The notes under the pieces: generated by a model | Seen by the model: only the letters and a program-made list of their open reading frames with translations | The model's database searches: none | Told to the model about the DNA's origin: nothing | Assembly (NCBI RefSeq): GCF_000224785.1 | Contig: NZ_AGAV01000016.1 | Span: forward strand, 1-64,000 | Direction of reading: 5' to 3' | DNA: 64,000 nucleotides | From: Lentibacillus jeotgali | GTDB taxonomy: Bacteria; Bacillota; Bacilli; Bacillales; Amphibacillaceae | Made by a program: the position numbers and the translations under genes | In this document: one piece after another, positions 51,453 to 61,185 of the stretch | Layout of the letters: each line of letters starts with the position of its first letter | How positions within the stretch are numbered: position 1 is the stretch's first letter

Positions 51453-51694
51453 GGGCTGGGACATAATTAAAACAACCAACTCTAAAGACGAACAATATAC
51501 TGCCTTAGCGTAGGAAATATACGTAGACTCCTGCGGGAGAAGAGGCATAGGTGAGACCCCGGAGTGCGAAGCGCGAGGAGGCTCACCAGCCGCCCGCGGA
51601 AAGCGAAGTATATTTCCGAAGCGGGTTATATCACCAATCATATTTTCTATTTAGTTTGGATTTTCTTTTTCATCAAAGCACTTTTGTCCCGCCC
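51453..51694. mobile_element. MITE-like element with terminal inverted repeats
   Basis: 242 bases bounded by GGGCTGGGACA (51453) and TGTCCCGCCC (51685-51694). Inside is a second palindrome, GGAAATATACGTAGACTCCTGCGGG with CCCGCGGAAAGCGAAGTATATTTCC. It encodes no transposase. Partial copies are at 10450-10550 and 18895-18925, and a possible right end (TGTGTCCCACCCTC) is at 26281. From memory, close relatives are scattered through many Bacillaceae genomes. It sits within the dpp-ykf operon just before ykfA. Confidence 0.75.
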
Positions 51695-51745
51695 TCTTCT
51701 TTCACTTCTATACATAATAGGGCGTATTCAAAGGAATGGATCAGA

Positions 51746-52663
51746 ATGAAACCAAAGCGTTTAACAAAAGGTGATACAATTGGCATAACAGCACCGGCCA
51801 GCCCTGCTGAGGTAAAACGTGTGAAAGAAACAATCCCATTTTTTGAACACTTGGGACTACGTGTCAAGCTCGGCAGGACACTTGGCCTAAAGCACGGCTA
51901 TTTAGCCGGAACTGATGCAGAGCGGCTTTTTGATTTCCATCAGATGATGGCAGACGACTCAATCAAAGCGGTCTTTTTTGCCCGCGGCGGCTATGGGACG
52001 GCACGCATCGCTGATGATATAGATTATCAGCTCGTACGGCAGAATCCCAAAATAATATGGGGCTACAGCGATATCACTTATCTGCATACAGCCATCCGCC
52101 AAAGAACCGGACTGACGACGTTCCATGGCCCGATGCCGGCTTCGGATATAGCGGATAGTGATTTTGATAGACTGTCTGCAAGCATGTTTCAGCAGCTGTT
52201 CGAACCTGTCACATTGTACTATTCAGAACATATTTCGCTGCTGAATGTCATCGTACCGGGAAAAGCAAACGGGGAGCTTGTCGGTGGAAATCTGTCACTC
52301 TTAATCAGTTCAATGGGCACACCATACGAAATCGAGACATACGGAAAATTGCTTTTGATTGAGGATATCGGGGAGGAGCCGTACCGCGTCGATTCCATGC
52401 TCAATCAGCTTAAGCTCGCCGGCAAATTGAATGCGGCAGCAGGAATCGTGATCGGGGATTTTGCTGAAGCGGATCCGCCGGAAGGGAAATCATCACTTTC
52501 CCTGGAGCAGGTCTTTTATGATTATTTTTCCGGTCTGTCGTGTCCGGTTATGTCCGGATTTAAAATCGGTCACTGCTTCCCGCATTTTTCCGTACCATTG
52601 GGAGAAACAGCCGTCATAAACACAGCGGATAAAACACTGACAGTCGAAGCAGGCGTGCGATAG
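51746..52663 (+). CDS. ykfA: LD-carboxypeptidase YkfA
   Basis: A 305-residue S66 peptidase that removes the terminal D-Ala from murein tetrapeptides in the cytoplasm. Nucleophile serine in WGYSDITYLH (about residue 111), catalytic Glu in LLIEDIGEEPYRVDSML, His in KIGHCFPHFSVPLG. No signal peptide. ATG at 51746 follows AAAGGAATGG. Its partner genes dppE (upstream) and ykfC, ykfD (downstream) match the B. subtilis dpp-ykf arrangement, but the mobile-type element upstream may alter its expression. Confidence 0.92.
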   Translation: MKPKRLTKGDTIGITAPASPAEVKRVKETIPFFEHLGLRVKLGRTLGLKHGYLAGTDAERLFDFHQMMADDSIKAVFFARGGYGTARIADDIDYQLVRQNPKIIWGYSDITYLHTAIRQRTGLTTFHGPMPASDIADSDFDRLSASMFQQLFEPVTLYYSEHISLLNVIVPGKANGELVGGNLSLLISSMGTPYEIETYGKLLLIEDIGEEPYRVDSMLNQLKLAGKLNAAAGIVIGDFAEADPPEGKSSLSLEQVFYDYFSGLSCPVMSGFKIGHCFPHFSVPLGETAVINTADKTLTVEAGVR

Positions 52664-52803
52664 CTGAACAGAATCCTATAGGGCGAGCTGTTATTGTGGA
52701 TATTTTTCCTGATCCCCCCTCAAATATTGAGGCGAGGTTTGGGGATAAGTTTTACAAAGATAGCACTAATCAGCTTGATAAGCATTAAGAGGGGGTGTAT
52801 CTG

Positions 52804-53760
52804 ATGGTTAAACAAACGTTTGGTCCATATACTGCAGAAGTTTGGGTGACAGCAGTTCAGGTCGCAACAATATGGACGTCGCCAGCGTCGCCACGGACAA
52901 TTGATGAACATGGGCTCAGTCATCCGACTGACATCGACGGCTGGGTTAGCAGTCTCGATTATGAATCAACTGTCGCGCTGTCCGATGAAAATCGTATTCA
53001 GACCCAAACATTATATGGAGAAGCGGTCACCGTTACCGAAACAAAGGGTGACTGGGCGCATGTTGTCATCCCGACACAGGTCTCGGTAAAAGATGAGCGC
53101 GGGTACCCCGGCTGGATGCCACTCGACCAGCTGAAACAGGTGAATAAGCAGGACTGGCAACGCGGGGAATCAGCTGCCGTCATCTCACCGCATGCCTGGC
53201 TGGAGGGTGAGGAGGGCGAAAGCATCATGAAACTCAGTTATATGACGATTTTGCCGGTTGAAACGAAAGCGGGTAGCCGTGTTAAAGTGAACACACCTCA
53301 TGGCTATAATTATTTACAGAAAAATGATGTAACGATTTTTCGCTCCGATCAAGGTTTGAAAAAGCAGCCGGGCACTGAGTTGTTAAAGGCTGGTGAGGCG
53401 TACGTCGGTCTGGATTATTTCTGGGGCGGCATGAGTTCGTTCGGCTATGACTGCTCAGGCTTTACCTATGCCATGCATAAAGCAAATGGCTATCAGATCC
53501 CGCGCGATGCCGGCGATCAGGCGAACTCCGGGCAAAGCATTCCATATGACCAGATGGAGCCGGGTGATCTGCTGTTTTTTGCCTATGAAGAAGGAAAAGG
53601 CAAATTACATCATGTCGGATTTTACTATGGTAAAGGCAACATGCTGCACTCGCCGCAAACCGGACGCGGTATTGAGCTGATTGAACTGAAAGGCACAAAA
53701 TATGAAAGTGAGCTTTGTGCTGTAACGAGATACTGGCAAGAAGCAGAGGAGCAATCATAA
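52804..53760 (+). CDS. ykfC: Gamma-D-glutamyl-L-diamino acid endopeptidase YkfC (NlpC/P60)
   Basis: A 318-residue cytoplasmic peptidase that cuts murein peptides with free N-terminal L-Ala between D-Glu and the diamino acid. Two SH3b-like domains (about 10-190) precede the NlpC/P60 domain: catalytic Cys in YDCSGFTYAMHKANG (about 220), His in HHVGFYYG and the third polar residue in HSPQTGRG. No signal peptide. ATG at 52804 is 8 bases after AAGAGGGGG. The stop overlaps the ykfD start by one base. Confidence 0.92.
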   Translation: MVKQTFGPYTAEVWVTAVQVATIWTSPASPRTIDEHGLSHPTDIDGWVSSLDYESTVALSDENRIQTQTLYGEAVTVTETKGDWAHVVIPTQVSVKDERGYPGWMPLDQLKQVNKQDWQRGESAAVISPHAWLEGEEGESIMKLSYMTILPVETKAGSRVKVNTPHGYNYLQKNDVTIFRSDQGLKKQPGTELLKAGEAYVGLDYFWGGMSSFGYDCSGFTYAMHKANGYQIPRDAGDQANSGQSIPYDQMEPGDLLFFAYEEGKGKLHHVGFYYGKGNMLHSPQTGRGIELIELKGTKYESELCAVTRYWQEAEEQS

Positions 53761-54779
53761 TGGCGGAGAAAATATTACAGCTAAGCAACCTGACCAAACA
53801 TTTCAATATGCGAAAAGGGCAAGTACTGCAGGCTGTCAATGATGTAACGTTTCATATCAATAAAGGGGAAACATTCGGCCTCGTCGGGGAGTCTGGCTGC
53901 GGCAAAACAACTGTCGGCCGCACGATTATGGGCCTCTATGACAAGACATCAGGTGATGTTTTTTATGATGATCAAAATGTGCACGAACTGGACGATAAAG
54001 AAACGTTCAATTTTTACCGGCAGATGCAAATGATTTTCCAGGACCCATATGCGTCATTGAACCCGCGTTCGACGGTTAAGGAAGTCATCTCCGAGCCGAT
54101 GGACGTCCATCGGCTTTATCCAAATAAAAAGGAACAATTGGACAGGGTGATACAGCTGCTGGAAGAGGTTGGGCTGAACCGTGACCATGCCAACCGTTAT
54201 CCCCATGAATTCAGTGGCGGACAGCGGCAGCGGATTGGTATTGCGCGGGCGCTTGCGCTCGATCCGGATTTTATCATTGCCGATGAGCCGATTTCCGCAT
54301 TAGATGTATCCGTCCAGGCACAGGTTGTAAATCTATTAAAAAATCTTCAAGAGGAAAAAGGCTTGACCTTTTTATTTATTGCCCATGATTTATCAATGGT
54401 CAAACAGATTTCTGACCGGATCGGTGTGATGTATTTAGGCAATCTGGTGGAACTGACCTCGAGTGATTCACTTTATGAAAACCCGCTCCATCCGTATACA
54501 CAGGCACTACTGTCGGCCATCCCGATTCCAGATCCCGATATCGAGGATACACGAGAGCGGATTATCCTGGAAGGCGAGCTACCAAGTCCGATCGATCCGC
54601 CGAGCGGCTGTGTATTCCGCACCCGCTGTCCGTTTGCGATGGATGTTTGTGCCGAGAAAAGACCCGGGTGGCTTGAGGTGGAAAAAGACCACTATGTTGC
54701 ATGCCACTTGTATGATGAAACGTTAAATGAAGCGGATCAACCGGACATAACAATCAATCATAAGCCTGTGCGGTCATAA
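53760..54779 (+). CDS. ykfD: Oligopeptide ABC transporter ATPase YkfD (OppF-type)
   Basis: A 339-residue second ATPase of the transporter. Walker [24 protein letters not shown], signature FSGGQRQRI, Walker [15 protein letters not shown], and the oligo_HPY tail ([15 protein letters not shown]). Start codon overlaps the ykfC stop (TAATG). A perfect-stem terminator spans the stop codon, ending the operon. B. subtilis additionally has dppA and the epimerase gene ykfB; neither is here. Confidence 0.93.
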
Positions 54780-56405: not shown

Positions 56406-57440
56406 ATGAAAGAAGAAAACAACGGCACTCCAAAAAATAAATGGAGTCGAATTTTCCGGAAAAAATGGTTCTTTCCGGCAGTCTATCTAACAGTAGCTGC
56501 ACTTCTTCTATCACTGGTGGTATGGTACCAGAATCTAGGCAACCAGATTGACCAAAGCCAGGAAGAAAATACAGAAGAATACGCACCAGTCGAACATGAT
56601 GAAGAGGCACAGCCGGTCATGGATCAGCAGGAAGTCATTCAAACGCCCGTCGAAAGCATGGATCAAGCAGAAATCGTAACTAAATACTATGACTACAACG
56701 CAGACCAGGAAGCTCAGGAGAATGCAATCGTCGTATTCAACGACCGCTACTATCAAAGCACAGGCATTGATATTGCATCTGCTGACGGTGAAACATTTGA
56801 TGTGTTGGCGTCATTGAGTGGAACAGTAAGCGAAGTCAAGGAAGATCCGATGCTGGGAAATGTCGTAACACTGAAACACGCTAATGGTGTCACAACGCAT
56901 TATGCCAGCCTTGGAGACGTTGAGGTTTCTGCTGATCAGGAAATCAATCAGGGAGATACGATTGGAACCGCTGGAGAAAACCTATTCGGTAAAGACAACG
57001 GGACACATCTCCATTTCGAAATCAGAAAAGATGGAGAAGACGTTAATCCAGAAGACTTCTTTAATCAGCCTTTAAGCGCGCTTGATGAAGTATCAACTGA
57101 GGAAGAGAAAGCGGATGGCGAAAATGCGGCGTCTGATGGAAGCGAGCACGAGAGTGAGCAATCTGAAGCAACAGAAGAGGAAAATACTGAATCCAACTCC
57201 GATGGTGCACAAGAGGAAAGCCCAGACTCTGAGGGCTCTCAGGAGGAAAACACTGACTCTGAGGGATCTGAAGAGGAAGGTGCAGACTCTGAAGGTGCAG
57301 AAGAAAGCGAATCCGGCTCATCTAACAATGACAATGCTGAATCTGACTCGTCAGAAAACAGCAACTCGGAATCTGACGGAAGTAAAGACAGCAATCAGGA
57401 TGACGCTTCAAATGATGTATCACAACCAGGCAATGAGTGA
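56406..57440 (+). CDS. spoIIQ: Stage II sporulation protein Q
   Basis: A 344-residue forespore membrane protein that pairs with SpoIIIAH in the channel between forespore and mother cell. One membrane helix (FFPAVYLTVAALLLSLVVWY, about 20-40) and a LytM/M23 domain (about 100-225). As in B. subtilis SpoIIQ the first metal histidine is replaced (YYQSTGIDI, Ser), while HLHFE is kept, so it is probably not an active peptidase. After about residue 225 comes a 120-residue tail of Ser, Glu, Asp, Asn and Gly, including repeated DSEGS/EEEN-type units (near 260-290). B. subtilis SpoIIQ is 283 residues; the long acidic tail fits a halophile's extracytoplasmic surface. Confidence 0.93.
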   Translation: MKEENNGTPKNKWSRIFRKKWFFPAVYLTVAALLLSLVVWYQNLGNQIDQSQEENTEEYAPVEHDEEAQPVMDQQEVIQTPVESMDQAEIVTKYYDYNADQEAQENAIVVFNDRYYQSTGIDIASADGETFDVLASLSGTVSEVKEDPMLGNVVTLKHANGVTTHYASLGDVEVSADQEINQGDTIGTAGENLFGKDNGTHLHFEIRKDGEDVNPEDFFNQPLSALDEVSTEEEKADGENAASDGSEHESEQSEATEEENTESNSDGAQEESPDSEGSQEENTDSEGSEEEGADSEGAEESESGSSNNDNAESDSSENSNSESDGSKDSNQDDASNDVSQPGNE

Positions 57441-57506: not shown

Positions 57507-57543
57507 AATAACCCTAGTTGGCATTCAACTGGGGTTATTTTTT
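57507..57543 (+). terminator. Terminator after spoIIQ
   Basis: Stem AATAACCCTAGTTG/CAACTGGGGTTATT with T-run. Confidence 0.85.
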
Positions 57544-57595
57544 GGTAACTAAGGTTTCTGATTTTTAAGGACAATTCTATCATTAATGCGAAATT

Positions 57596-57626
57596 TGTCG
57601 AAGGAAATTGCTATTATTTGGCGAAT
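57596..57626 (+). promoter_or_regulatory. Sigma-H promoter with Spo0A box, upstream of the AimR-like gene
   Basis: GA-AGGAAAT (57600-57608), exactly 11 bases, GGCGAAT (57620-57626), matching the sigma-H consensus RNAGGAWWW-N11/12-RNNGAAT. A perfect Spo0A box TGTCGAA (57596-57602) overlaps the -35 region. The layout equals the spo0F promoter at 13246-13270 in both motif and spacing. The transcript would start about 80 bases before the gene. Confidence 0.7.
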
Positions 57627-57713
57627 CTTGTGGTATTATATAGATATATAGAATTTTTACTAAAATTATTTTATACAGGTGACCCATGCCAATTTTGATA
57701 AGGAGGTGTATTC

Positions 57714-58751
57714 ATGTCCGGCTTTAGGTTTAATTTGATGCCTGATTCGATCGCAGCCTTGTCCACTGACGACGAGCTGAAAATAGAACAAATTTTACTG
57801 ATATTGCGGCAGGATTACGATGAGCATGCTGTCCATCAGCTAATGCGAAAATTTTGCCATGAAACGACCTCCGAGGAAATCAGAAAAAAAGGCATGGAAT
57901 TTTTATATATGTATGGCTATTATGACGACCTGCAGCGGCTGATCACCAAAAACAGATCATCGGAATCTCCCTCCAATCGCAAATGGGCTGAAGTTTATCA
58001 GCTGACTCTGGATCGCAAGCAAAGGCGATACCCGGCAAATGACGTTTTACGAAAAGCCAGTAAGTTTCGGACGGATGAGACCGAGTTGAAATGTCTGATC
58101 GAATTCATCAAGCTGGCAGTTTACTTTAGCAGACATGAATACGGGATGTTAGGCAATATCCTTGAAAAACAGCAGCAGCTATTCGAAAAAGTGACTGACT
58201 GCTTTATGCTGGCATTTTTCCATAACCGGCTGGATCAGAACTTATTCGTGTACTATCTCGTCCGAAATGAAGCCATTATTGCCCGCAAGTATGCGTTTCG
58301 CGCTCTAAAGGAAGCAACAAGCCCGATAACAAAAATCAGCTTGCATATCCGTCTTGGATTATCGTATATGCACGACACCTATTTGCAAGGCATCTATCAT
58401 CTGACCGAAGCACTGAAACTTGCAAAGAAAGAAAACCTCCAGACAGAAGTCGAGAACATCGAACAACGGAACATTCCGTTTTTATCCGCACACTTCAACC
58501 AATTAGAAGGCATTACATCAACCGACATAAGTGAACAAGCCCATATCGAGATAGCCAAAGGGAACTATGCCAAAGCAGAGGCCCTTCTGAGCGAGATTGA
58601 AATCAACAGCCCATTCAAACTGTACTACCTGGGCATGGCCAAGCAGGATGAAAGGATTCTCCTGCAGTCATACAATGATTTTATTGAAAAACGGAGCGAC
58701 TACTTCTTCAGCCGGCTGCCGCTGAATGCGCTCCGGAAAATGACCGGATAG
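57714..58751 (+). CDS. AimR-like (RRNPP-type) peptide receptor lacking the DNA-binding region
   Basis: A 345-residue, all-helical TPR-type protein. By recalled comparison with SPbeta AimR (386 residues) it aligns over most of its length: LMRKFCHETT with LMKDYC, then EYGMLGNILEK, RKYAFRALKEATSP, KISLHIRLGLSYMHDTYLQG, and the C-terminus EQAHIEIAKGNYAKAEALLSEIE and FFSRLPLNALRKM. The about 40 N-terminal residues that form the helix-turn-helix in AimR are missing. The start at 57714 follows AAGGAGGTG, so this is not a mis-called start. It may act by protein contact, like Rap proteins, rather than on DNA. A 43-codon secreted-peptide gene follows. No phage gene is near. Promoter elements indicate sigma-H/Spo0A control. 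Confidence 0.75.
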   Translation: MSGFRFNLMPDSIAALSTDDELKIEQILLILRQDYDEHAVHQLMRKFCHETTSEEIRKKGMEFLYMYGYYDDLQRLITKNRSSESPSNRKWAEVYQLTLDRKQRRYPANDVLRKASKFRTDETELKCLIEFIKLAVYFSRHEYGMLGNILEKQQQLFEKVTDCFMLAFFHNRLDQNLFVYYLVRNEAIIARKYAFRALKEATSPITKISLHIRLGLSYMHDTYLQGIYHLTEALKLAKKENLQTEVENIEQRNIPFLSAHFNQLEGITSTDISEQAHIEIAKGNYAKAEALLSEIEINSPFKLYYLGMAKQDERILLQSYNDFIEKRSDYFFSRLPLNALRKMTG

Positions 58752-58794
58752 TGCCGCTGCGGGTGGCACTCATCCGTCTTGTTAACCGCTGTAA

Positions 58795-58824
58795 TTGGAA
58801 ATAGGGCGTGGCTGCCAGTATATA
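58795..58824 (+). promoter_or_regulatory. Possible separate promoter of the peptide gene
   Basis: TTGGAA (58795-58800), 18-base spacer, TATATA (58819-58824), 21 bases before the peptide ATG. A small hairpin TGCC...GGCA (58752-58768) lies between the receptor stop and this site. Confidence 0.4.
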
Positions 58825-58844
58825 TTCATGAGAGGAGGAAGACC

Positions 58845-58976
58845 ATGAGAAAACTAATTGTTTCATTAGGTCTCTTTACTGTATTGCTGTTCGGCATTGT
58901 GCCAATTGATGCGGCAGGTACAGCAGGCGATGGGCCTACAGTAAATTATGACCCAGACTTAGGCGACGTGGATTAA
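58845..58976 (+). CDS. Small secreted propeptide, AimP/Phr-like
   Basis: A 43-residue product: a basic start (MRKL), a hydrophobic signal segment (IVSLGLFTVLLFGIVPI, 5-21), a likely cleavage region after DAA or GTA, and a short acidic tail GDGPTVNYDPDLGDVD. ATG follows a strong GAGGAGG. The order receptor-then-propeptide and the length (phage AimP propeptides are also about 43 residues, from memory) match arbitrium and Rap-Phr systems. The tail does not end in the GA of phage arbitrium peptides and is acidic, so the mature signal, if any, would be of a different type. Confidence 0.65.
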   Translation: MRKLIVSLGLFTVLLFGIVPIDAAGTAGDGPTVNYDPDLGDVD

Positions 58977-59433
58977 TTTCCGGCTACATTTTTTGAATTA
59001 GAATTTATGAGAGCAGAGACAGGACCGAAAAGGACTTAAGCGTGACATAAGCTGAAAATTCAGCAGCCAAAGCCACTGCCCTATTTTCTTTTTTAATAAC
59101 CTACCGATTGAGAGAACAATATTTCTTGTCCCCATTTCACCTAACATGCAATTTTAATCATAATCCTCCCTAAACGTTAATAAAATATTACAAACCAAGC
59201 ATTCAGAAAAGTCTGAGGTGAGAGCTTGTGTAGCTTTCCATCCAGCCATCCGAATTTTCATCTAATACATACAAATGTCATATGCGAAGGGGTTTTTCTT
59301 CAGTTGATCCAATAAATAAAATACAGCCAGAGCTGCACACAAGAATTGTCCAGAAGATAAGTGAACAGTGTAACATGTATCACCTTGTCTCAAACCACAC
59401 CTCGGAAATATCCAACTTAGGGAGGCGAACGGT
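58977..59433. other. Gap between the peptide gene and spoIIID
   Basis: 457 bases. A short palindrome GCTGAAAATTCAGC (59050-59063) lies after the peptide gene. A TTTTCTTTTTT run near 59086 could end that transcript. The right half holds a sigma-E-like -10 box. A 62-codon open frame at 59282 overlaps spoIIID and has no ribosome site; I do not call it. Confidence 0.5.
59268..59275 (+). promoter_or_regulatory. Sigma-E-like -10 box before spoIIID
   Basis: CATACAAA resembles the sigma-E -10 consensus CATACAMT. The expected -35 region (about 59245-59253) is a poor match. spoIIID is sigma-E dependent in B. subtilis. Confidence 0.35.
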
Positions 59434-59718
59434 GTGCACGATTACATCAAAGAAAGGACAATCAGGATAGGCAAATATGTTGTGGAGACGAAGAAAACTG
59501 TCCGATTGATCGCTAAAGAATTTGGTGTCTCCAAAAGCACAGTCCACAAAGATTTAACAGAACGCTTGCCGGAAATAAATCCCGAACTCTATAATCAGGT
59601 CAAAGATGTACTCACCTACCACAAATCAATCCGCCATCTCCGTGGAGGCGAAGCAACCCGTAACAAATACAGGGACGACAATAGGACAGAAAACTCCACC
59701 TTCAAGCCAGTAGGATGA
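59434..59718 (+). CDS. spoIIID: Stage III sporulation transcriptional regulator SpoIIID
   Basis: A 94-residue DNA-binding protein that tunes sigma-E and sigma-K genes in the mother cell. The helix-turn-helix is in TVRLIAKEFGVSKSTVHKDLTERL (about 23-46), the basic C-terminal extension in HKSIRHLRGGEATRNKYR. GTG start at 59434 after GGGAGG. A terminator follows at 59806-59835. In B. subtilis mbl follows directly; here an array and a minus-strand gene intervene. Confidence 0.96.
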   Translation: MHDYIKERTIRIGKYVVETKKTVRLIAKEFGVSKSTVHKDLTERLPEINPELYNQVKDVLTYHKSIRHLRGGEATRNKYRDDNRTENSTFKPVG

Positions 59719-59835: not shown

Positions 59836-59869
59836 GGGTGGATGCAGTTATAGAGAGTTTTTCTCTGAT

Positions 59870-60130
59870 GCGTGAACTTCAGCGCGAGATCGAGCTGTTC
59901 AGCTCGAGAGCAGAAACTTCAGCTCGAGCGAGGAAACTTCATCCCGAGTGGAGAAACTTCAGCTCGAGCGAGGAAACTTCATCCCGAGCGAGGAAACTTC
60001 AGCTCGAGCGAGGAAACTTCATCCCGAGCGGAGAAACTTCAGCTCGAGATCGGAAACTTCATCCCGAGCGAGAAAATTTCAGCCCGAGAGCAGAAACTTC
60101 AGCTCGAAACGAATATCTTCTTCTCGAGGT
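59870..60130 (+). repeat. Intergenic array, family 2, second copy
   Basis: About thirteen 20-base units, AACTTCAGCTCGAGCGAGGA alternating almost strictly with AACTTCATCCCGAGCGAGGA. Same core as 33219-33440. Open in all three forward frames because 20 is not a multiple of 3, producing long repetitive spurious proteins. Confidence 0.88.
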
Positions 60131-60141
60131 GAGATCAGTAA

Positions 60142-61185
60142 CTAATCCAGCCTTTGTTTTGCAAAATCGTTTTTAAATCTAACTGGGATGATGGAATTTT
60201 GCGGGAAGTCATTAATTGGAGGTGAGAAGTACACCCTGGCGCTGGTGTTTCCGGTCTTTCTTAGATTCATCGAATTCATTATGACGTACGCTGTTTTGGG
60301 AGAAGCAACCTGTAAAAGTTCACGGCACTGTTTATTAGTGATCGTGGTGCCATGGAGGAGAAAATAGTCAAGGATAAAACGTTCGTGGGCGTTGTAACTA
60401 ATAGCAGAACAGTATGGACATTGCCATCTTTTGTACAGACGTTTCATCGGATATTTATAGCACTTTTCACAAGGAACGCCTTTTATCAGATGTTGTTCGT
60501 TAATGTTGTGTTGTTGTATGATGCTAGTCCTGAGCGGTACATTTTCCCTTAATATGGTACTGCATAATTTTTTGATATCTGCATTGGTGAGGATGTTCGT
60601 TGTGTAGCTGTCGTTTAACCTGTCAAGGTGCTGATGGAGGCTTTCGTTATGAATAATCTTCTTATAAGCATCTGGATCTTGTGTGACATTTTCAATGATG
60701 GTTGTAGGATACGCAACGACAACGAGGGTCTCAATCGGGATATTGAAAACGCCATGCCGCGCAAGCCATGCCCGCAAATGTGTTTTTTGCGCCTCGGCCT
60801 GTAAAATGGGATCTTTGTAGGATGTCACCTCTCCGTTTACGACCTGCGTTAATTGCCGCTGCTCGGAATTATATTTAAATGTTCCTTTCTGGTTTTTGGT
60901 TTCGAGAATGTAAATCACTTTGTTTGTCAGGATAAGTGTATCCATTTGAAAATTGAATGGAGGGTTTTCCAACCGGATGCCTTGAAAAACGAAGAAATCT
61001 TTGTGCGGATAAGTGGAAAGCTTGTAGTCAACATTTTTCTCGCCGTCATAGCCTGCCTTTGCCCGTTTGTATTCCGAAACGATGGCTTCGTGCTGCCGGT
61101 ATTTCTCCAAAATACATCTAAAGAGCGCTTCATAAGCCAGCAGCTCGTGCGGTTTCTTTCGCTGCAATACTATTGTCGGGAACAA
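60142..61185 (-). CDS. NERD-domain protein with a zinc ribbon
   Basis: A 347-residue protein. The NERD (nuclease-related) domain lies at about 40-160: GYDGEKNVDYKL, FNFQMDTLILTNKVIYILETKNQKG with the D...ExK pattern of nuclease folds. A zinc ribbon CEKCYKYPMKRLYKRWQCPYC follows at about 240-260, then a helical C-terminal part (FILDYFLLHGTTITNKQCRELLQV). TTG start at 61185 is supported by AAGGAGTGATGA. Such proteins are common in Bacillaceae and mostly uncharacterised; DNA processing or defence has been suggested for the domain. It lies on the minus strand between spoIIID and mbl. Confidence 0.8.
   Translation of the reverse strand: MFPTIVLQRKKPHELLAYEALFRCILEKYRQHEAIVSEYKRAKAGYDGEKNVDYKLSTYPHKDFFVFQGIRLENPPFNFQMDTLILTNKVIYILETKNQKGTFKYNSEQRQLTQVVNGEVTSYKDPILQAEAQKTHLRAWLARHGVFNIPIETLVVVAYPTTIIENVTQDPDAYKKIIHNESLHQHLDRLNDSYTTNILTNADIKKLCSTILRENVPLRTSIIQQHNINEQHLIKGVPCEKCYKYPMKRLYKRWQCPYCSAISYNAHERFILDYFLLHGTTITNKQCRELLQVASPKTAYVIMNSMNLRKTGNTSARVYFSPPINDFPQNSIIPVRFKNDFAKQRLD

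Follow-up and report, generated by a model that had tools for sequence, protein, structure and literature searches.

A chromosomal AimR-like receptor and its putative octapeptide pheromone between spoIIQ and spoIIID in Lentibacillus jeotgali and its relatives

Overview of the locus

The window analysed here, the whole stretch of 64,000 nucleotides from contig NZ_AGAV01000016.1 of Lentibacillus jeotgali, was found to carry an AimR-like receptor gene without an HTH part, followed by a small gene for a signal-type propeptide. Judged by sequence, the two genes form a real, conserved and host-owned receptor–pheromone pair, a variant of the RRNPPA systems whose function we infer. The genes follow each other in the order spoIID, spoIIQ, receptor, propeptide, usd-like ORF, spoIIID, a NERD gene on the minus strand, mbl/mreB and fabZ, and the SpoIID, SpoIIQ, SpoIIID, MreB/Mbl and FabZ neighbours were confirmed by profile. 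The features of the locus are as follows.

56406..57440, plus strand: spoIIQ, flanking sporulation gene (NF053738 S2SprSpoIIQBc, 325 bits, cut-off 250)
57507..57539, plus strand: terminator-like hairpin past spoIIQ, 15 pairs and then a T run
57594-57602, between spoIIQ and the receptor gene: TTTGTCGAA, containing TGTCGAA
57596..57602, plus strand: TGTCGAA, the core of a Spo0A box, ahead of the receptor gene; exact here and conserved in relatives
57619..57625, plus strand: possible second Spo0A half-site TGGCGAA, fitting TGNCGAA and kept in only some aligned orthologues
57631..57639, plus strand: extended -10 TGGTATTAT, 35 nt after the box start
57700..57708, plus strand: ribosome binding site AAGGAGGTG of the receptor gene, read in the sequence
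57714..58751, plus strand: HTH-less AimR-like receptor, 345 aa, ATG start (Pfam, NCBIfam and PHROGs profiles)
58845..58976, plus strand: propeptide gene, 43 aa, signal-type N-terminus, ribosome binding site GAGGAGG
58950..58973, plus strand: coding for DPDLGDVD, the octapeptide predicted as mature product (family consensus and tandem units in relatives)
59226..59315, plus strand: usd-like small ORF of 29 codons before spoIIID, with a CTGAGGTGAGAGC start region conserved in relatives
59434..59718, plus strand: spoIIID, flanking sporulation regulator (TIGR02844, 143 bits, cut-off 111.5)

The receptor site belongs to a vertically inherited sporulation gene cluster and not to a mobile element, the location that is characteristic of AimR. 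The original prediction had placed the pair between spoIIQ and spoIIID with no phage genes nearby, and both points held: all scanned neighbour proteins matched cellular families in Pfam and NCBIfam (PHROGs was run on the receptor and the propeptide only), while the position between spoIIQ and spoIIID is conserved in 30 of the 30 best loci and for 109 of 182 receptors from relatives.

Several further features of the region may be recorded. The hairpin past spoIIQ is weak by itself, as three terminator-like sites were found against 2.0 expected in shuffles. The small ORF at 59226-59315, which we take to be probably usd, has a strong ribosome binding site and starts with TTG here and with ATG or GTG in some relatives. 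Upstream of spoIID lie genes for an LD-carboxypeptidase (51551-52663), an NlpC/P60-like protein (52795-53760, matches below curated cut-offs) and, just before spoIID, an oligopeptide/dipeptide ABC transporter ATPase (ABC_tran and oligo_HPY, 53715-54779); together they resemble a murein-peptide uptake operon, the importer part of which is close to the receptor–peptide pair. A NERD (nuclease-related) domain protein is encoded at 60142-61185 on the minus strand between spoIIID and mbl, and repeat DNA at 59838-60176 holds three overlapping forward frames with an ARKLHPE/RGNFSS-type repeat unit.

The receptor and its missing parts

A profile search of 57714-58751 found the AimR family in Pfam (PF22871, E 2.6e-83, 280 bits, cut-off 26.7), NCBIfam (NF038310, E 3.5e-58, 197 bits, cut-off 70, matched from profile position 30) and PHROGs (phrog_1728, E 6.2e-53). 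In addition, a profile built from the window receptor and 22 of the other 29 first loci matched the solved AimR 6hp3 with an E of 4.3e-17 and an alignment starting at AimR residue 48. By these four comparisons an AimR-type TPR domain is present, and the resemblance across the TPR part named in the original prediction is now carried by a strong profile match. The NCBIfam model is the equivalog named 'lysis-lysogeny pheromone receptor', and the window receptor lies above its cut-off. In one alignment, the AimP-contact residues E300, D360, F276 and F362 are kept, while N202, N206, R228 and N239, which hold much of AimP in AimR, are changed. A Pfam scan to E 1 detected no RapH_N bundle in the receptor.

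Two further parts of the original prediction, a true start with AAGGAGGTG and the absence of the DNA-binding N-terminus, were likewise upheld. The ATG at 57714 follows that site at 57700-57708, and the open frame of 349 aa leaves just four codons upstream of it, so that no in-frame HTH can be added. The DNA-binding domain of AimR has been assigned to residues 1-48 (PMC6536502) or to residues 1-59 (PMC6458997), the fourth helix of which is counted with the first TPR in the former description; the receptor alignment begins where the former ends and eleven residues short of the latter end. Frame length, N-terminal alignment and the profile against solved AimR thus agree that an N-terminal HTH is absent from the receptor. 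Among the 182 relatives, 39 frames have room for at least 24 residues before profile position 1, and in none of them does a start codon preceded by GGAGG, AGGAG or AAGGA lie far enough upstream.

The phage AimR of SPbeta has been reported to dimerise via its last helix with leucines L380, L383, L384 and L386 (PMC6340889, PMC6458997). The window receptor ends 2 residues past the profile end and misses this C-terminal dimerisation helix. Receptors of the chromosomal set run a median of 2 residues past the profile end (182 proteins) against a median of 12 in 20 AimR of the other branch, these being the ones that run on among the 25 that reach the profile end. Only 13 of the 182, all from family f36, possess 9-22 extra C-terminal residues. 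Most of the chromosomal clade has therefore lost both parts that AimR needs for a DNA-binding dimer, and because the HTH and the dimer helix are gone, the receptor is proposed to act by protein contact, as Rap does.

The propeptide and its predicted octapeptide

As had been predicted, a 43-codon propeptide gene with a signal segment follows the receptor gene (58845-58976). Its product, which is of the Sec type, begins with basic residues, continues with a hydrophobic segment and finishes with DPDLGDVD; Pfam and NCBIfam were silent on it, and the best PHROGs match had an E of 0.21. The 63 propeptides recognised at the locus share the octapeptide consensus DP[GDE][YL]G[DE][ILV][DG]. Tandem copies, 2-14 per propeptide, are present in 13 of 79 propeptides, one relative carrying five DPVMGDLD units with one residue between units, and it is because of these copies that the unit length can be set at eight residues.

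A propeptide accompanies the receptor in 28 of the 30 best loci, and one with DP..G is found downstream of 63 of the 109 unique receptors at the locus and of 79 of 182 overall when ORFs up to 500 aa, and with them the long tandem propeptides, are counted. With ORFs limited to 130 aa, a downstream DP..G ORF was found in sense for 61 of the 109, against none in antisense at the same limit and 0.4 expected from shuffles, and a filter for signal plus DP gave the same 61/109 and 0; the pairing of receptor and propeptide is therefore not due to chance. Away from the locus, 15 of 72 receptors have a DP..G ORF. That a small secreted-type ORF would be conserved in relatives thus proved true for 63 of the 109 locus receptors and failed for the other 46, which have no recognised propeptide; these include receptors from a number of Oceanobacillus, Gracilibacillus-like and g16 genomes, and most of those from f36. 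Many of these receptors may listen to another source, or their peptide may be of a different type.

Two of the 12 genomes of the genus (G001 and G007) have no receptor, and the receptor is therefore dispensable. Both keep a propeptide ORF whose signal part is intact but whose end has no DPxxG, and the gap between spoIIQ and spoIIID measures about 1.1 kb in them against about 2.3 kb in the window genome. The exact TGTCGAA core is also absent there. The two genomes may stand for a single event, and the decay of DPxxG without a receptor is what would be expected if the receptor reads the octapeptide. An attempt at receptor–peptide covariation is given no weight, as high mutual information was spread over the whole protein, and the one pair of interest, L/W at residue 182 against L/Y at position 4 of the peptide, goes back to a single independent change.

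Distribution and descent

Homologues were found in 10 of 12 genomes of the genus, 118 of 146 of the family (39 of 46 genera), 57 of 397 of the order, with weaker phage-type matches included, and 12 of 398 of the class. The carriers include Lentibacillus, Virgibacillus, Oceanobacillus, Ornithinibacillus, Paucisalibacillus, Aquibacillus, Paraliobacillus and Gracilibacillus. After removal of duplicates, 246 receptor frames left 182 unique ones, 109 of them at the spoIIQ–spoIIID locus, which is occupied in two families (f1 and f36). For 67 of the 182, neither spoIIQ nor spoIIID lies in the fetched stretch, with flanks of about 1.5-3 kb, and these represent paralogues elsewhere.

Across the 109 loci, receptor distances follow SpoIIQ distances (Mantel r 0.805, 0 of 1000 permutations). 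Six of the seven pairs compared gave dN/dS values of about 0.05-0.17, indicating purifying selection (dS was undefined for the remaining pair), and the receptor frames are mostly intact in relatives. By these signs the pair would be chromosome-owned and vertically inherited.

In quick trees with SH-aLRT support only (94 and 100) and no inferred root, the chromosomal receptors sampled group in a single clade that excludes the phage-type AimR. The first tree held 102 of 207 unique proteins (79 of them chromosomal and 23 from the other branch); for the second, one long branch (L249) was dropped and nine class-level rows were added, these nine including two pairs of identical rows and a long row of doubtful value. 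Of the 25 loci of the other branch, one is a phage record and two are plasmid records, and 'phage-type' serves as a working label for the rest, as it does for the further AimR of order and class level on that side of the trees. INPHARED yielded one relative at 22%, a pattern-based scan of IMG/VR none, and plasmids two distant matches. For 17 family genomes, every match listed belongs to the chromosomal type, with an E of 2e-61 or better. With the trees unrooted, the clade may have been co-opted from arbitrium or may be ancestral to it, the two options named in the original prediction.

Some receptors outside the main pattern deserve mention. Two loci of family f36 (L213 and L214) have tandem arrays of HTH-less receptors, and the L213 array, the one that was read, contains four receptor copies with no peptide gene between. 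At the class level, four of seven matches in family f65 are long HTH-type frames.

Upstream region and putative Spo0A control

In the window, a core Spo0A box, TGTCGAA (PMC3485338, PMC5295017), is located upstream of the predicted promoter of the receptor gene, as is characteristic of the Spo0A regulon. When the 300 bp upstream of the approximate receptor start were searched on the forward strand, this core turned up before 82 of the 109 locus receptors, where 2.1 were expected and a downstream control interval gave 4 of 109; the exact core is absent before 27. The link to sporulation that the original prediction had suggested gains support from this conservation. Over the whole window the 7-mer shows no excess (13 found, 10.5 expected). 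Moreover, TGnTAnnnT occurs within 60 nt of the box at 64 of the 82 box-bearing loci against 11.3 expected, and lies at 35-36 nt as the first match in 55 of the 82; in the window itself the site at 57631 is the second match, the first and nearer one being TGCTATTAT at 57609, 13 nt from the box. For receptors away from the locus, the forward box core was found in 14 of 73 against 1.5 expected, with 3 of 70 in the control.

The gene abrB is a known Spo0A target, and as a positive control the core was found before 11 of the 11 abrB loci examined in the 12 genus genomes, the window's own genome included. The genes spoIIGA and spoIIE are expected Spo0A targets as well, and TGNCGAA was found upstream of them at 0 of 24 loci. 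Many Spo0A targets have degenerate boxes (PMC3485338), which this negative result fits, yet it weakens the case for Spo0A. On balance, Spo0A control of the receptor promoter seems likely.

Two longer candidate motifs were set aside. The pattern WTTGTCGAANGAWT, tried as a genome-wide marker of Spo0A, gave two unrelated matches in the window's own genome and missed the window's own site. The pattern TTGTCGAACGATT was rejected as proof of Spo0A since it also recurs before a yqeG-like gene: it occurs in 91 of 146 family genomes at 115 places, against about 78 for the backward pattern, and not in the window's own genome, and 10 of 19 chosen sites away from the receptor lie before a yqeG-like gene (L334, L335, L338-L340, L343, L345, L346, L348 and L349), three of them with an sda-like gene opposite that faces away. 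The names yqeG-like and sda-like are our assignments from the protein sequences. In B. subtilis, DnaA binding has been reported in an interval of the sda/yqeG type (PMC4447404). The recurrence of TTGTCGAACGATT leaves another regulator behind the box motif possible, and it hints at a regulator common to sda/yqeG and the receptor.

Comparison with known systems

The pair shares with AimR–AimP of the SPbeta-group phages the AimR TPR domain, a small downstream Sec-type propeptide and, as far as one alignment shows, some of the peptide-contact residues (E300, D360, F276 and F362). It differs in having no HTH and no C-terminal dimer helix, in its chromosomal sporulation locus, in the Spo0A box core and in its peptide, which is predicted to be an acidic octapeptide of the DPxxGDLD kind, whereas AimP is a hexapeptide such as GMPRGA. 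By the defining features legible in its sequence, the receptor is not an arbitrium receptor; the combination of a TPR receptor and a short secreted-type propeptide is that of the RRNPPA systems. With Rap–Phr of Bacillus it has in common an HTH-less chromosomal TPR receptor with its own peptide and a possible phosphorelay link, while the RapH_N bundle is missing and the sporulation locus is fixed here. Rap has also been inferred to have arisen by HTH loss and is placed in another clan than AimR (PMC12700828).

RRNPP subfamily 21, named in PMC12700828, consists of chromosomal systems of Alkalihalobacilli that branch within AimR in the sequence tree (Extended Data Fig. 10 there) and thus resembles the pair in being chromosomal and branching with AimR; the passages on this subfamily make no mention of spoIIQ–spoIIID, HTH or Spo0A. 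The receptors of family f7, with peptides such as DPGDGGYW and DPGDSGIG, may correspond to it. AloR and subfamily 08 of Paenibacillaceae, known here by their description as HTH-9TPR, belong to the same clan as AimR, and a DPG motif is common to the peptides of AimR and subfamily 08 (PMC12700828). PMC10075063 treats its AimR clusters as belonging to phages from the B. cereus and B. subtilis groups. No paper in the full-text search of the literature combined AimR with spoIIID, and none of the listings and abstract beginnings covered described this locus; some of the genes may nevertheless be listed in earlier work.

Proposed role and alternative explanations

Taken as a whole, the best explanation appears to be a Spo0A-driven, octapeptide-gated and Rap-like host pair, in which our confidence is slightly better than even. 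At sporulation entry, Spo0A~P would act on the receptor promoter via the TGTCGAA box. Sec would export the propeptide, processing would yield an octapeptide of the DPxxGDLD type (DPDLGDVD in the window), and this would presumably be taken up again and bound by the lone TPR receptor. Binding would switch the grip of the receptor on a partner protein, for which a phosphorelay component or an early sporulation regulator is the most plausible guess. By analogy with Rap–Phr, the free receptor might block some step in the phosphorelay or in early sporulation and the peptide might lift this block, although this direction is guessed. A Spo0A-driven receptor would then provide density-gated feedback, as Rap–Phr does in Bacillus subtilis.

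The distribution of SpoIIID bears on this role only weakly. SpoIIID is present in 138 of 146 family genomes and the receptor in 118 of these 138, while all eight genomes without SpoIIID, from three genera, are also without the receptor; one of those genera (g27) additionally includes three genomes with spoIIID and no receptor. As for Rap itself, no RapH_N domain was found in the window's genome, and it occurs in three of 17 sampled family genomes, all of genus g16, a genus that has some of the most divergent locus receptors in the family.

The receptor gene could instead be a passenger of the locus, part of an AimR-like pair that Spo0A controls for some purpose other than sporulation, such as biofilm, competence or toxin control. 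Spo0A governs many non-sporulation processes (PMC3485338), and the 67 of 182 receptors with neither spoIIQ nor spoIIID in flanks of about 1.5-3 kb show that paralogues reside elsewhere, but the same position is held in both f1 and f36 and the eight SpoIIID-less family genomes of three genera are also without the receptor, which makes this reading unlikely. Quite unlikely, in turn, is an action on DNA after all, in which the receptor would dock on a second protein that carries the HTH, with the adjacent SpoIIID as one candidate. SpoIIID is the next conserved gene, and a split arrangement does exist on a Bacillus velezensis plasmid, where a 74-aa HTH gene is followed by a 320-aa AimR; against docking, SpoIIID, the sole HTH-type regulator among the scanned neighbours, also occurs in 20 family genomes that have no receptor, and its timing fits poorly with a Spo0A box at the receptor. 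SpoIIID acts in the mother cell. The plasmid locus itself (L235, 2006-3553), in which an AimP gene comes third, is possibly a split arbitrium receptor.

Chromosomal AimR homologues outside mobile elements have been described as 'eavesdroppers', and a DNA-blind host AimR might listen in on the arbitrium peptides of phages, titrate them, or pair with phage AimR. In that published view, 11% of AimR outside mobile elements have a propeptide (PMC9765709), compared with 63 of 109 at the locus here, and the two sets may overlap. The 46 locus receptors without a propeptide would suit such listening, as would some AimR of the other branch that adjoin DPG-type peptides, e.g., DPGGG. However, 63 receptors have a propeptide of their own, no DPxxG is left in the two congeners that have no receptor, the dimer helix for pairing with phage AimR is missing, and the phage collections gave one 22% relative in INPHARED and none in the pattern-based IMG/VR scan. 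Eavesdropping was set aside as the main reading, and is considered very unlikely, on account of the receptors' own propeptides and of the 17 family genomes for which only chromosomal-type matches, with an E of 2e-61 or better, were listed. A decayed, functionless prophage remnant might be suspected in that the AimR family is best known from phages; purifying selection, vertical inheritance, a conserved promoter motif and mostly intact frames make its probability close to nil.

Significance

AimR is known as a phage receptor, and its chromosomal copies have been read as eavesdroppers (PMC9765709); here such a receptor is common in one large family. A wider view, which we hold tentatively and put somewhat below an even chance, is that of a second and independent 'Rap': a lineage of AimR that would have shed its DNA-binding and dimer parts and become a Spo0A-driven, peptide-controlled sporulation regulator in genera with few or no Rap, so that arbitrium and host control would be two outgrowths of one family and the 'eavesdroppers' of this clade would in many species also speak. 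If the proposed role is true, DPxxGDLD octapeptides would be candidate sporulation pheromones where few Rap domains are found, the NCBI 'lysis-lysogeny pheromone receptor' model would be seen to cover host genes too, and the pair would represent a host counterpart of arbitrium through which the origin of arbitrium becomes open to experiment.
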